A stretch of 26,905 nt of DNA. Source: a virus. The position numbers and the translations under genes are program-made. Under the pieces are notes generated by a model, which was not told the origin of the DNA, searched no databases, and saw only the letters and a program-made list of their open reading frames with translations. Positions 5,881-20,886 of this stretch are shown here, piece by piece. The number at the start of each line of letters is the position of its first letter. Positions within the stretch are counted from its first letter, which is position 1. The stretch lies in IMG/VR virus record IMGVR_UViG_3300031857_001139, positions 1 through 26,905 of that record; one strand, 5' to 3'.

Positions 5881-6678
5881 ATGATGAAAAAATTTGCTCT
5901 TACTGGTTTGGTTGTTGCTTCAATTCTCGCAACGGGTTGTACCCGAATTGAGACTGGTGAAGTTGGTGTTCGTGTTGGCTTTGACAAACAAGTCCAGCAA
6001 GGTGAATTATTGCCCGGTTCTTTTAATCAAACCATGGTCGGTGATGTTCTTACATTCCCCATTAAAGATGTGAATGTTAAACTTGAGGACATGACACCTG
6101 TTGCTAAAGATAACAGTACCATGAAAGACTTGGATGCAGTGGTTATCTATAACATCAACCAGGCACAGGTTGCTGAATTGTACAGCCAAAAGAGTCAGGC
6201 ATTCCATGCTCGACACAACGGCGACATTTATTTGATGTATAACTACATTGTCCAAACTACCCGTAACGCTATCTACAAGGAAGCACGAAAGTATGAGGCT
6301 CTAGATATGGCTGATAATCGCCAAGCGATGGAACAAGCTATCAAAGAACAAATTCAAAAGAGTTTGGCTGATGAAAAACTTGATGGTAGTTTGATTATTG
6401 GTCAAGTGTTGATTCGGAATATTTTACCTGCTGATTCGGTTGTTGCAAGTGCAAATGAGTTGGTTCGTGCTAAGAATGAATTGAAACAAAAAGAAGTTGA
6501 AGTTAAGACTGCTAAGATGGAAGCAGAACGTATGCAAGCATTGAGTAATCAAGGTGCTCAAAGTATCGCTTACATGCAAGCGCAGGCTATGATGAATATC
6601 TCAGAAGGTATCAAGAACGGCAAGGTGCAAACGATTGTTGTGCCAGCAAACTTCAATGCGCTGATGATGCAAAAATGA
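5881..6678 (+). CDS. SPFH/band-7 (prohibitin-like) lipoprotein
   Basis: Encodes 265 aa. Residues 1-20 form a lipoprotein signal peptide ending at the lipobox ATGC, with C20 the predicted lipidated Cys. TRIETGEVGVRVGFDKQVQQGELLPGSF follows the standard start of band-7 domains. Residues about 45-180 carry the SPFH body, including the QVLIRNILPADSV strand. About 190-235 are an Ala/Glu/Lys-rich coiled coil (ELKQKEVEVKTAKMEAERMQA), the usual oligomerisation helix. SPFH proteins form large rings on membranes and can control proteases. Here it would face the periplasm. Its role in the phage is unknown; superinfection exclusion or envelope protection are possibilities. AAGGATATAT precedes the start. 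Confidence 0.85.
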   Translation: MMKKFALTGLVVASILATGCTRIETGEVGVRVGFDKQVQQGELLPGSFNQTMVGDVLTFPIKDVNVKLEDMTPVAKDNSTMKDLDAVVIYNINQAQVAELYSQKSQAFHARHNGDIYLMYNYIVQTTRNAIYKEARKYEALDMADNRQAMEQAIKEQIQKSLADEKLDGSLIIGQVLIRNILPADSVVASANELVRAKNELKQKEVEVKTAKMEAERMQALSNQGAQSIAYMQAQAMMNISEGIKNGKVQTIVVPANFNALMMQK

Positions 6679-17042: not shown

Positions 17043-17116
17043 ACCCGGATAGTTAAATGGTATAACGTAGGCTTGATAAGCCTTTATCACAAGTTCGATT
17101 CTTGTTCCGGGTACCA
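17043..17116 (+). tRNA. tRNA-Ile (GAU)
   Basis: A 74-nt cloverleaf, anticodon GAT in loop TTGATAA, perfect acceptor starting A1-U72, encoded CCA. Confidence 0.92.
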
Positions 17117-17118
17117 GA

Positions 17119-17192
17119 ATCTCGTTGGTGTAATGGTAGCACAAGAAACTCCAAATCTCTTGGCGGGAGTTCGATTCTCTCACGGGATACCA
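17119..17192 (+). tRNA. tRNA-Trp (CCA)
   Basis: A 74-nt cloverleaf, anticodon CCA in loop CTCCAAA, acceptor fully paired with one G-U, one A-C mismatch in the anticodon stem, encoded CCA end. Confidence 0.9.
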
Positions 17193-17209
17193 TTTTTAAA
17201 AGGATTGAT

Positions 17210-17680
17210 ATGTACAATAAAAAAATTGACTTAGATGAAGTTAAAGCATACATTGATAATTGCGGACCAGATACAAAAGTTTATTTGGGATGTGATTCAG
17301 AAAAAGTTAAAATCAATGGTGAATGGCATGCTGATTACATAATTGCTATTGTTGTACATGTTAATGGTAACAACGGTTGCAAAATCTTTGGTGAAATTAC
17401 CAGAGAAAAAGATTATGAAAAAGCAAGAAACAAACCTCGTTTGCGTTTAATGAATGAAGTTTATAAGGTAGCAGATATGTACCTACAATTAGCGGAAATA
17501 ATTGACAATGACATTGAGGTTCATCTTGACATTAATCCTGACATGATGTATAATTCAAGCATTGTTGTTAACGAAGCTATTGGCTATATAAAAGGAATGT
17601 GTAATGTTATTCCTCTTGTTAAGCCAAATGCGTTTGCAGCCTCATATGCGGCTGATAGATTTAAAAGTCTAGCGGCTTAA
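17210..17680 (+). CDS. YkuK-like RNase H-fold protein
   Basis: Encodes 156 aa from ATG 17210, with AAAAGGATTGAT upstream; an in-frame start at 17102 would lie in tRNAs. VYLGCDSEKVK (about 24-34), YIIAIVVHVN, a KIFGEITREKDY strand, RLMNEVYKVADMYLQL helix, VHLDINPDMMYNSSIVVNEAIGYIKGM and a closing LVKPNAFAASYAADRF match the YkuK/DUF458 family of predicted RNase H-fold proteins. The Asp residues in GCDSE and LDINPD are the likely metal ligands. Inside an RNA-gene array a role in RNA processing is tempting but unproven. Confidence 0.82.
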   Translation: MYNKKIDLDEVKAYIDNCGPDTKVYLGCDSEKVKINGEWHADYIIAIVVHVNGNNGCKIFGEITREKDYEKARNKPRLRLMNEVYKVADMYLQLAEIIDNDIEVHLDINPDMMYNSSIVVNEAIGYIKGMCNVIPLVKPNAFAASYAADRFKSLAA

Positions 17681-17771: not shown

Positions 17772-17800
17772 TTGACAAGATGTTGTGACTATGTTACAAT
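17772..17800 (+). promoter_or_regulatory. promoter of the large structured RNA
   Basis: TTGACA at 17772-17777 and TACAAT at 17795-17800, 17-nt spacer. The -10 matches that of the first array promoter. Predicted start about 17807. Confidence 0.85.
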
Positions 17801-17806
17801 GTCAAA

Positions 17807-18697
17807 ATCAAGAAATTGAATATGGTGGTTTAGCATCATTAAGATAAGGCAAGTGATTGTCCCAAAGGAGGTATGCCTACATAACTCCGCTAGAAATAGT
17901 CTATCTAAACAAGCCTGCTCACTACCGTGAGGTAGCGTTCATTGATAAGACCGATGGATGTAACAATGACGCTGGATGTTGTGGAAAGAATTAGTGGCTC
18001 AAGCGCCTGCAAGGGTAACGCAAGTCATTAGAGAGTAACAGGTGGTGCTGACCTCACAACAAAACCAGTCCAGTTAATTGGTATGAGAAAGGGTAGCGTA
18101 TTTGTCCGAGAGGTTGCACTTAAGGGCTCGTATGCAGTTTGAATGGTTTATGGAGGTATGCGAAAGCCGAGACCCGACATGAATCGTGAAAAACGACTGA
18201 TTAGTCCGCAAGACAAAAGGTACGTGGCGTGTTGTATTTTGTAGTCCAAAAGATTATGAAACAACTGAGACAGCACATCACAGTAGGTTCAGTTATAGCA
18301 CAATGGTAGTGCATCTCCCTGTTAAGGAGACGGCTGAGGGTTCAACTCCTTCTAACGTTTAAAAAGCAAAGTCTGTCTCGGTTGTATGTGAAAATCATCT
18401 AATACTTGAGTGGTAACACAATCAAGTCTGACGTAACTCGCAAGGTGAAATCAGTTTATGCAGAAAGTTTCGTAACAGTTTAGCGACTGTGAATGGCTCT
18501 AAAGGTCAACGGGATAGATAGTGTAGAATAGCATACAGCGCCAAGTCTAATGCCTGACTTTAAACGGCGATGTTGATAACATACTAGAATACATAGTAAT
18601 ATGGTTTTAGTGGAAATCAGAAGAAAGCAGTCTCGCAAGGATTGTAATAATGTCTGAAGTGTTATTCGGTAAGCATGTATTCTCAGTGCTCCAATAT
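17807..18697 (+). ncRNA. giant structured noncoding RNA (GOLLD-like candidate)
   Basis: About 890 nt with no credible gene on either strand, its own promoter, and its 3' end set by tRNA-Gly. Visible helices: 17828-17833 with 17905-17910; GGAG-GTA-tgcc-TAC-CTCC at 17867-17888; CTACC-GTGA-GGTAG at 17922-17935; 17935-17944 with 17964-17972; 17978-17983 with 18055-18060 enclosing 17995-17999 with 18023-18027 and a GCAA tetraloop hairpin (18003-18021); 18084-type small hairpins near 18184-18206; 18261-18273 with 18373-18385 enclosing a tRNA-Asn-like domain; ACTTGA-GTG-GTAA-CAC-TCAAGT at 18404-18427; 18539-18569; and 18586-18594 with 18675-18683. Several GNRA loops and an asymmetric internal loop are hallmarks of large ornate RNAs. 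Length, phage origin, nearby tRNAs and the embedded tRNA recall GOLLD RNA; ROOL or a new class are alternatives. Confidence 0.75.
18289..18360 (+). tRNA. embedded tRNA-Asn-like domain (GUU), defective acceptor
   Basis: D arm (GCAC...GTGC), anticodon arm with loop CTGTTAA and T arm (GAGGG TTCAACT CCTTC) are canonical for tRNA-Asn. Only four acceptor pairs form (GTTA with TAAC, positions 4-7); positions 1-3 cannot pair and no CCA follows. A 13-bp helix (18261-18273 with 18373-18385) closes around it. It is therefore more likely a domain of the large RNA than a free tRNA. Confidence 0.7.
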
Positions 18698-18772
18698 GCG
18701 GGTATGGTGCTAGTGGTAACACAAGACCTTGCCAAGGTTTAGTTGTGGGTTCGATTCCCACTACCCGCTCCA
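18698..18772 (+). tRNA. tRNA-Gly (GCC)
   Basis: A 75-nt cloverleaf, anticodon GCC in loop TTGCCAA, perfect acceptor, encoded CCA. RNase P cleavage at its 5' end would release the large RNA. Confidence 0.93.
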
Positions 18773-18890
18773 TATAAAAACATTTTTGACGAACATTGGA
18801 CGCCATGTTGCGGAAAATGTTCGGTCACCTGGCAGTGGCGAAAGATTCTTTGTGCCAGCATTGAATTGATATTGAAAGTGTTTCTATATG
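18771..18890 (+). ncRNA. stem-closed RNA element 5
   Basis: 18771-18787 pairs with 18874-18890 (17 positions, one A-C mismatch, two G-U). Inside are a 7-bp stem (18791-18797 with 18816-18822) and a 6-bp stem (18829-18834 with 18853-18858). It begins in the CCA of tRNA-Gly and ends 5 nt before the next tRNA. The 5' arm is similar in sequence to that of element 4 (CATATAAAAACAT in both). Confidence 0.58.
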
Positions 18891-19221: not shown

Positions 19222-19227
19222 AGTTTT

Positions 19228-19298
19228 GTCCCAGACTGTTGTTGCGAGTCGGATTTGAAGCCGAACGTAGACAGGTTCGATTCCTGTTAGGGGCGCCA
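19228..19298 (+). tRNA. aberrant short tRNA, ambiguous anticodon
   Basis: A 71-nt gene with CCA, T arm and a mostly paired acceptor. Only 13 nt lie between acceptor and anticodon stem, too few for a normal D arm. The anticodon stem has 4 bp around an 8-nt loop (ATTTGAAG), readable as GAA (Phe) or TTG (Gln). A normal tRNA-Phe exists at 19840, so this copy may be degenerate. Confidence 0.55.
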
Positions 19299-19303
19299 AG
19301 TTT

Positions 19304-19402
19304 TGCGTTATAGTATAGTGGTTAGTACGCAAGGGCCCACACGATTAAAATTGTATGGTGGGAGTTGCCAGTGAAACGATGGTTCGATTCCATCTAACGC
19401 AA
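19304..19402 (+). tRNA. tRNA-like gene with enlarged anticodon arm
   Basis: Acceptor (7 of 7), D arm and T arm are well formed, but a long compound hairpin (GCAA...TTGC, then CCCAC...GTGGG, then ACGAT-TAAA-ATTGT) replaces the normal 17-nt anticodon arm. No CCA is encoded. It could be a pseudogene, an intron-bearing tRNA or a decoy. Confidence 0.5.
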
Positions 19403-19415
19403 TTAAGTTTTGTAA

Positions 19416-20098: not shown

Positions 20099-20173
20099 CT
20101 GGCGTTAGTATAATGGATAATACAGTAGGCTTCTACCCTTCTGATGGGAGTTCGATTCTCTCACGCCGGACCA
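20099..20173 (+). tRNA. tRNA-Arg (UCU)
   Basis: A 75-nt cloverleaf, anticodon TCT in loop CTTCTAC, acceptor fully paired, encoded CCA. Its last 13 nt are antisense to the 3' end of the peptidase gene. Confidence 0.92.
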
Positions 20174-20886
20174 TATCTTTTAACAAGAAACTCAGCCTCG
20201 GGTATTCTTGTTTTTGTGTTCTTACTGCCAAGAACAACAACAATCCTTTTACCAATATTCGTATTCATCAACATCACAATACATCCGCCTGATGCTCTGA
20301 TGTATCCTGTTTTACTTACAATCGTATTGTGTTCTCTGCCAATGATTGGATTGGTATTGTGAAACACCAACCACTTCTTCTTCACTTTTATTTTAACTTC
20401 ACTAAGACCGCTTGCCTCAACTATCTCTGGGTACTTCTTAGCCTCAGATACAAGAGTAATTAATTCTTCCGCGGTGCTTACATTGAATACACTTAAACCA
20501 GTTGGCTCAATGAATTTGGTTTGTGTAAGTCCTAATGATTTTGCTTTTTGATTCATAGCGTACACACACGCATGTGCGCCTGCGGGATAATAACGACATA
20601 AATCTTTAGCCGCTTGATTGTCCGATTTGACCAATGCAAGCTGAATCAATTCTTTTCTTGTGTATGGTTTTAATTCATTCAAATTTTGTTTAGCATCTAA
20701 TACGACCATTGCAGTCATAAGTTTAGTGATGCTTGCTATTGAACGAATCTCTTTGGTATTTTCACCCGATAGTATCTTACCATCTTCATTTGCTATTAAC
20801 CAACTCTGTGCGGTAACTGTACTTGCCCAACAATTAATGGTAAGTGCAGTAAACAAAAAAGTAAAAAACTTTTGTATGTGTGTCAT
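20161..20886 (-). CDS. S11 D-Ala-D-Ala peptidase (PBP7-like), secreted
   Basis: Encodes 241 aa. Residues 1-26 are a signal peptide (basic start, hydrophobic core, ASTVTA/Q-like cleavage region). The three penicillin-binding-protein motifs are intact: S52-I-T-K55 with nucleophile Ser and Lys, S88-D-N90, and K192-T-G194. Length and spacing fit low-molecular-mass PBPs of peptidase family S11 such as PbpG, which cut D-Ala-D-Ala termini or cross-links of peptidoglycan in the periplasm. It could trim the wall during lysis or protect the infected cell. AAAGG lies upstream of the start. It is last in the minus-strand cluster. Confidence 0.9.
   Translation of the reverse strand: MTHIQKFFTFLFTALTINCWASTVTAQSWLIANEDGKILSGENTKEIRSIASITKLMTAMVVLDAKQNLNELKPYTRKELIQLALVKSDNQAAKDLCRYYPAGAHACVYAMNQKAKSLGLTQTKFIEPTGLSVFNVSTAEELITLVSEAKKYPEIVEASGLSEVKIKVKKKWLVFHNTNPIIGREHNTIVSKTGYIRASGGCIVMLMNTNIGKRIVVVLGSKNTKTRIPEAEFLVKRYGPA
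20182..20225 (+). terminator. terminator of the tRNA array
   Basis: An 8-bp stem (20182-20189 with 20215-20222) with a 25-nt loop and a run of five T follows the last tRNA by 9 nt. It lies inside the 3' end of the convergent peptidase gene. Confidence 0.65.

Follow-up and report, generated by a model that had tools for sequence, protein, structure and literature searches.

A GOLLD RNA in a phage tRNA array with an exchangeable, tRNA-shaped linker module that probably lacks a chargeable end

The window analyzed here is the whole of a 26.9-kb IMG/VR virus record (IMGVR_UViG_3300031857_001139; 26,905 nt), in which a noncoding unit of about 890 nt lies between an RNase H-like gene (17102-17680, + strand; PF04308, phrog_11311) and a tRNA-Gly(GCC) gene with an encoded CCA end (18698-18772, + strand; ARAGORN). 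ARAGORN identifies 29 tRNAs around the unit, from 13.5 to 20.2 kb. At the 5′ end of the unit a sigma-70-type promoter can be read on the + strand (17772-17800), with TTGACA at 17772-17777 and TACAAT at 17795-17800 separated by a 17-nt spacer. The coordinates given for the unit in an earlier note on this DNA, with a promoter at the 5′ end and a tRNA at the 3′ end, are borne out by these features. The same note saw no credible gene, and this too holds, with the sole ORF of at least 60 amino acids inside the unit (18480-18806, minus strand) rejected as a gene on account of the stops and frameshifts it meets in close relatives, and with no conserved reading frame present among the relatives.

The RNA encoded by the unit is almost certainly a GOLLD RNA, judged by its match to Rfam model RF02032, which covers the 3′ domain plus linker at 18224-18689 (+ strand) from end to end (model positions 1-416 of 416) with 205.9 bits and an E value of 4e-57, the gathering score used as cut-off being 150 bits. 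Other hallmarks of GOLLD are also present, namely a structured 5′ domain, a total length of about 890 nt (GOLLD RNAs exceeding about 800 nt), a virus record, a location in a tRNA array and a variable internal linker with a tRNA-shaped module. Rfam searches for ROOL, OLE and raiA, proposed as a check alongside GOLLD, found nothing at E 0.1 between 17700 and 19420. The suggestion of a GOLLD relative was therefore correct, while that of a new class, and of the strongest candidate for an undescribed system in this DNA, finds no support, since GOLLD is an already described RNA with a solved cage structure (PMC12286853); as a member of a known family, the RNA that headed the earlier note is not new. 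A new class of giant RNA has next to no likelihood, as the 5′ domain, missing from Rfam and with matches in the other sampled GOLLD branches that are only short and weak in their 5′ region, would speak for it, but the GOLLD model is matched end to end well above its cut-off and a divergent 5′ domain is a published GOLLD trait (PMC12286853).

The RNase H-like gene upstream is widespread in IMG/VR and rarely shares a record with GOLLD. Of 50 IMG/VR records carrying the gene just two had a GOLLD, and of 12 others none did, such that the gene and the RNA are not tightly linked. The cellular relatives of the gene are mostly from freshwater Betaproteobacteria, which hints, and no more, at a host of this kind for the window virus.

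A DNA similarity search with the window GOLLD against 50,697 phage records returned the neighboring tRNA-Gly only, a megablast of the tRNA array against phage records gave almost nothing and no named phage record with the window GOLLD was found. Because similarity to phage records had yielded only the tRNA-Gly, relatives were drawn from IMG/VR, first by scanning it with three patterns and one protein and then by searching whole records with the GOLLD covariance model. Beyond the window about 100 GOLLD places above the cut-off were found in IMG/VR, and the working set comprised 79 GOLLD loci with the window included. In one 424-kb record (G057) a full GOLLD is accompanied by a further GOLLD-like match at 167864-168218 that stays below threshold at 40 bits.

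The 5′ domain (17809-18223, + strand) lies outside the Rfam model and was delimited by blastn similarity and a 39-sequence alignment, in which it has about 21 helices. By blastn it is similar over its full 415 nt to dozens of IMG/VR loci with GOLLD, while the 5′ regions of the other GOLLD branches sampled have only short, weak matches to it, in agreement with the published divergence of the GOLLD 5′ domain (PMC12286853). RNAalifold analysis of the 39 aligned sequences revealed 102 consensus pairs, and in 69 of these both sides change. With the structure fixed, 98.6% of cells were paired compared to 79.9% in shuffled and at most 40.5% in slid controls, and the covariation score was 0.575 compared to 0.206 (shuffled) and at most 0.090 (slid), with the slid control somewhat flattering since the structure was taken from the same alignment; the number of compensatory pairs is decisive over this caveat. 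Covariation, which the earlier note had named as one of the checks to be made, is thus present far above chance, and the GNRA loops it listed (GTGA at 17927, GCAA at 18009 and GTAA at 18413) are all there and closed by helices. The folding energy (z = -1.7) is unremarkable by itself.

The distance from the end of the -10 box to the start of the GOLLD model is 423 nt in the window and 423, 423 and 422 nt in the close relatives L312, L298 and L296. A promoter of comparable quality lies about 400-440 nt upstream of the model start in a number of relatives, with merely weak promoter matches in others. The identity and structure of 17809-18697 indicate that it encodes a GOLLD RNA, which would be transcribed from its own promoter. 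At the other end, the 8-nt gap between the end of the GOLLD model and tRNA-Gly is identical in L296, L298 and L312, though not in most relatives, and RNase P cleavage of tRNA-Gly may define the 3′ end of the RNA.

While the tRNA-Gly of the array was correctly placed at the 3′ end of the unit, a tRNA-like element inside the RNA itself had been missed. This element is a tRNA-Asn(GUU)-shaped module in the linker (18289-18359, + strand; anticodon GTT at 18321-18323) that scores 54.8 bits with the Rfam tRNA model. Linker alignments place it between two conserved anchors on the + strand, GTAGGTT on the left (18283-18289) and AAAAAGCAAAGTCT on the right (18361-18374), part of the latter having served as a search pattern for the relatives, with the cassette as a whole sitting between GTAGGTT and AAAAAGCAAAG as fixed anchors. 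In many relatives the last bases of the left anchor occupy outer acceptor positions. The tRNA model covers only positions 4-67 of 71 in the window module, and ARAGORN reports no tRNA at 18289-18359. The acceptor consists of 4 bp only (18292-18295 with 18353-18356) in place of a seven-bp stem, and there is no CCA, the next letters being TAAA.

To compare linkers across loci, a parser was used that scored the D, anticodon and T arms and ignored the acceptor stem. A tRNA-shaped module was found in 66 of the 79 loci, representing 53 distinct sequences, a frequency that describes the branch of the window rather than GOLLD at large since the search patterns favor that branch, and part of the intactness of these modules comes from case selection since the parser demands T33, the D-loop GG and mostly intact stems. 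The remaining 13 loci have no confident module, with tRNA-free linkers occurring in other GOLLD branches. Among the 53 modules the inner acceptor pairs, 4:69 to 7:66, are formed in 94-96%, a level equaled in none of 5000 shuffles. The outer pairs 1:72, 2:71 and 3:70 are formed in 53, 38 and 57%, where column composition predicts 51, 42 and 49%, and are no better than the 5000 shuffles. By comparison, 886 standalone tRNAs from the same loci, passed through the same parser, have all seven acceptor pairs at 87-94%. A CCA end, which could in principle be added after processing, is encoded in 98.5% of the standalone tRNAs compared to two of the 53 modules (L310 and L314).

This open acceptor does not look like decay. 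Between close module pairs the differences are largely matched stem changes, such as 27 with 43 or 28 and 31 with 39 and 42, with the T-loop core (T54, T55, C56 and A58) invariant, which argues that the module is under purifying selection on its fold. With the outer three acceptor pairs and CCA missing, the module is probably neither excised by tRNA-processing enzymes nor charged, and on the sequence evidence we consider it very likely to be locked into the GOLLD RNA in a non-chargeable form, against which stand the modules of L310 and L314 that end in CCA.

The anticodons of the 53 modules are mostly GUU (18) and UUU (14), followed by CUU (3) and AUU (2), with Thr, Arg, Glu, Leu, Ile, Gly, Pro, Ser and Gln types being rarer. 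NUU (Asn/Lys) anticodons are thus carried by 37 of 53 modules (70%) compared to 87 of 886 standalone tRNAs (10%), a bias that could stem from shared ancestry or from an AU-rich linker, and the anticodon loops are strongly biased to U35 U36 A37 A38. The unusual AUU anticodon belongs to the modules of L314 and L323, and the anticodon loop is 8 nt long in the linker modules of L328, L326 and L336 (e.g., ATTTTCAA). A tree of 57 GOLLD cores, built with the linker left out, requires at least 28 anticodon changes, and NUU status changes 11 times on it.

The origin of the modules was addressed by comparison with the standalone tRNAs. When the anticodon was masked, only three of 50 modules had a best standalone match with an identical anticodon, whereas in standalone controls treated likewise the anticodon agrees in 68-119 of 150, the figure varying with the similarity cap. 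Modules are usually closer to other modules than to any standalone tRNA, and recent capture of array tRNAs into the linker was rejected by this comparison. In the loci L300 and L303 the cores are 99.7% identical over 775 nt and the modules 66%, with the break falling at the anchors. The flanking contigs of this pair are about 82-86% identical while the roughly 1.2 kb around GOLLD are 96.5% identical, suggesting that the GOLLD unit passed recently from one phage to another. More widely, core pairs that are 90-97% identical have a mean module identity of 75%, equal to that of pairs at 80-90%. Taken with the L300/L303 break, this flat 75% indicates that the module is a cassette that is exchanged as well as one that mutates.

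The cage structure of the env-38 GOLLD provides a frame for these observations. Cryo-EM revealed a 14-mer that is hollow and encloses the linker; according to the same study GOLLD expression goes up during lysis and the linker sometimes includes tRNAs, which one of its figures imagines exposed on opening of the cage (PMC12286853). Like the window RNA, env-38 GOLLD has a full 3′ domain, a separate 5′ domain, a length of about 890 nt and an internal linker, and GOLLD is likewise found in phage genomes inside tRNA arrays (PMC12286853). The two differ in that the env-38 linker was unresolved (nucleotides 497-538) (PMC12286853), while that of the window holds a tRNA-shaped module that is conserved, open at the acceptor end and exchanged between phages; the window 5′ domain is in turn unlike those of the other GOLLD branches sampled. 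A GOLLD from Mycobacterium also lies in a tRNA cluster with an internal tRNA, which was termed a pseudo-tRNA and was not detected as a separate RNA (PMC6582537). The passages compared contain no analysis of the acceptor end or of exchange across phages (PMC6582537), for which 53 distinct modules are compared here. No description of the locked acceptor, the anticodon bias or the exchange was found in the literature compared, which excludes the original 2009 account and a 2020 Mycobacterium study, and the priority of these three features as new is therefore not firm.

Other systems offer partial parallels. ROOL cages resemble GOLLD in being RNA-only, in coming from phages near tRNA islands and in having a disordered linker inside, but ROOL differs from the window RNA in sequence and fold and has no match in the window. 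Both tmRNA and the bacterial Y RNAs are noncoding RNAs with a built-in tRNA-like part. In tmRNA the chargeable acceptor is kept and the anticodon arm is absent, of which the GOLLD module, with its anticodon arm kept and its chargeable acceptor gone, is the mirror image.

Given homology with env-38, the window GOLLD would probably form a hollow RNA cage by self-assembly of about 14 copies, its linker turned inward. In this branch the linker is an exchangeable cassette holding a tRNA-shaped module between fixed anchors, in which selection keeps the elbow, the anticodon arm and the inner four acceptor pairs, with the outer three and CCA lost. Elbow and anticodon arm would remain readable to a partner, and up to fourteen locked baits per cage could bind a host factor whose target is the body and anticodon arm of tRNAs, the likeliest being anticodon-cutting defense enzymes, with the cassette being swapped to follow different host enzymes. 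Taken as a whole, the explanation of a GOLLD shell with an exchangeable tRNA-shaped cassette serving as locked bait for host factors is plausible, if not quite probable. Its functional core, the module as a decoy for tRNA-attacking host enzymes, is tentative, and the wider reading of this GOLLD branch as a specificity-swapping counter-defense device, with interchangeable non-chargeable baits (mostly Asn/Lys) in a conserved shell, is more doubtful still.

Among the known weapons of phage defense are host enzymes that target anticodons. Phages have also been shown to be rescued by phage tRNA-Lys from one such anticodon nuclease, PrrC (PMC11555353), and it is on these two grounds that a decoy is preferred. 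The GOLLD modules, often Lys or Asn, recall the phage tRNAs that evade anticodon nucleases, with the difference that the latter are ordinary, separate tRNAs (PMC11555353) while the modules are tethered and apparently non-chargeable. Against a decoy, phage tRNA-Asn gave no rescue from PrrC in the one published test (PMC11555353), yet GUU is the commonest module anticodon, and a closed cage would hide the module from host enzymes unless it opens.

The main rival to a decoy is a structural role, in which the module would be a compact plug, folding by itself, that would fill the inside of the cage, act as a spacer there or guide assembly, its anticodon having no partner. We regard this as rather unlikely, though it would account for a fold that is kept while anticodon and sequence are free to vary, for a linker that points into the cage (PMC12286853) and for a tRNA that other GOLLDs dispense with, as in the 13 of 79 loci without a confident module and the tRNA-free linkers of other branches. 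A plug would, however, have no need of the strong U35 U36 A37 A38 bias in the anticodon loop or of an obvious exchange of cassettes.

Two further readings fit less well than either a decoy or a plug. It is improbable that the linker tRNA is a working nested gene that is excised, has its ends repaired and decodes Asn (window) or Lys codons. The cloverleaf body is well formed and CCA is encoded in L310 and L314, but the outer acceptor pairs form at chance, CCA is absent in 51 of 53 modules compared to 98.5% encoded in the neighbors, the body is unlike standalone tRNAs of the same anticodon and the Mycobacterium pseudo-tRNA was without detected separate expression (PMC6582537). The window array has no other tRNA-Asn(GUU) among its 29 tRNAs, which favors a working tRNA and counts against a reading outside translation here, though the record is a fragment. 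Filling of an array gap by the linker tRNA holds for the window and fails for large arrays; in those of at least 25 tRNAs a normal tRNA with the anticodon of the module is also there in five of six cases (GTT) and seven of seven (TTT), such that large arrays already have the same isotype. Equally improbable is a neutral or selfish passenger, with array tRNA genes recombining into the linker as the one insertion-tolerant place in GOLLD; the cassette is indeed exchanged between fixed anchors and GOLLD is located in tRNA arrays, but modules usually resemble other modules and not array tRNAs, their stems covary as would be unexpected for passive insertions and their loss is confined to the acceptor end.

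The pattern of the modules points to a partner by which the body or the anticodon loop of tRNAs is read. A selected tRNA fold without a charging end, biased to NUU and swapped between near-identical cages, gives a testable handle on GOLLD.

Other elements were noted in the window. At 19299-19403 (+ strand) there is a tRNA-shaped element that Rfam scores with the tRNA model at 46.6 bits and ARAGORN does not call, with normal acceptor, D and T arms and, in the predicted fold, a long hairpin instead of the anticodon arm. It is preceded at 19222-19299 (+ strand) by a degenerate tRNA-like remnant, which ends in ...GGGGCGCCA, lacks a full 5′ acceptor to match and is called by neither ARAGORN nor Rfam. 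Directly after the tRNA array and on the opposite strand lies a D-alanyl-D-alanine carboxypeptidase-like gene (20161-20886, minus strand; PF00768), and elsewhere in the phage genome a gene at 5881-6678 (+ strand) encodes a protein with an SPFH/Band 7 domain and a start resembling that of a lipoprotein.
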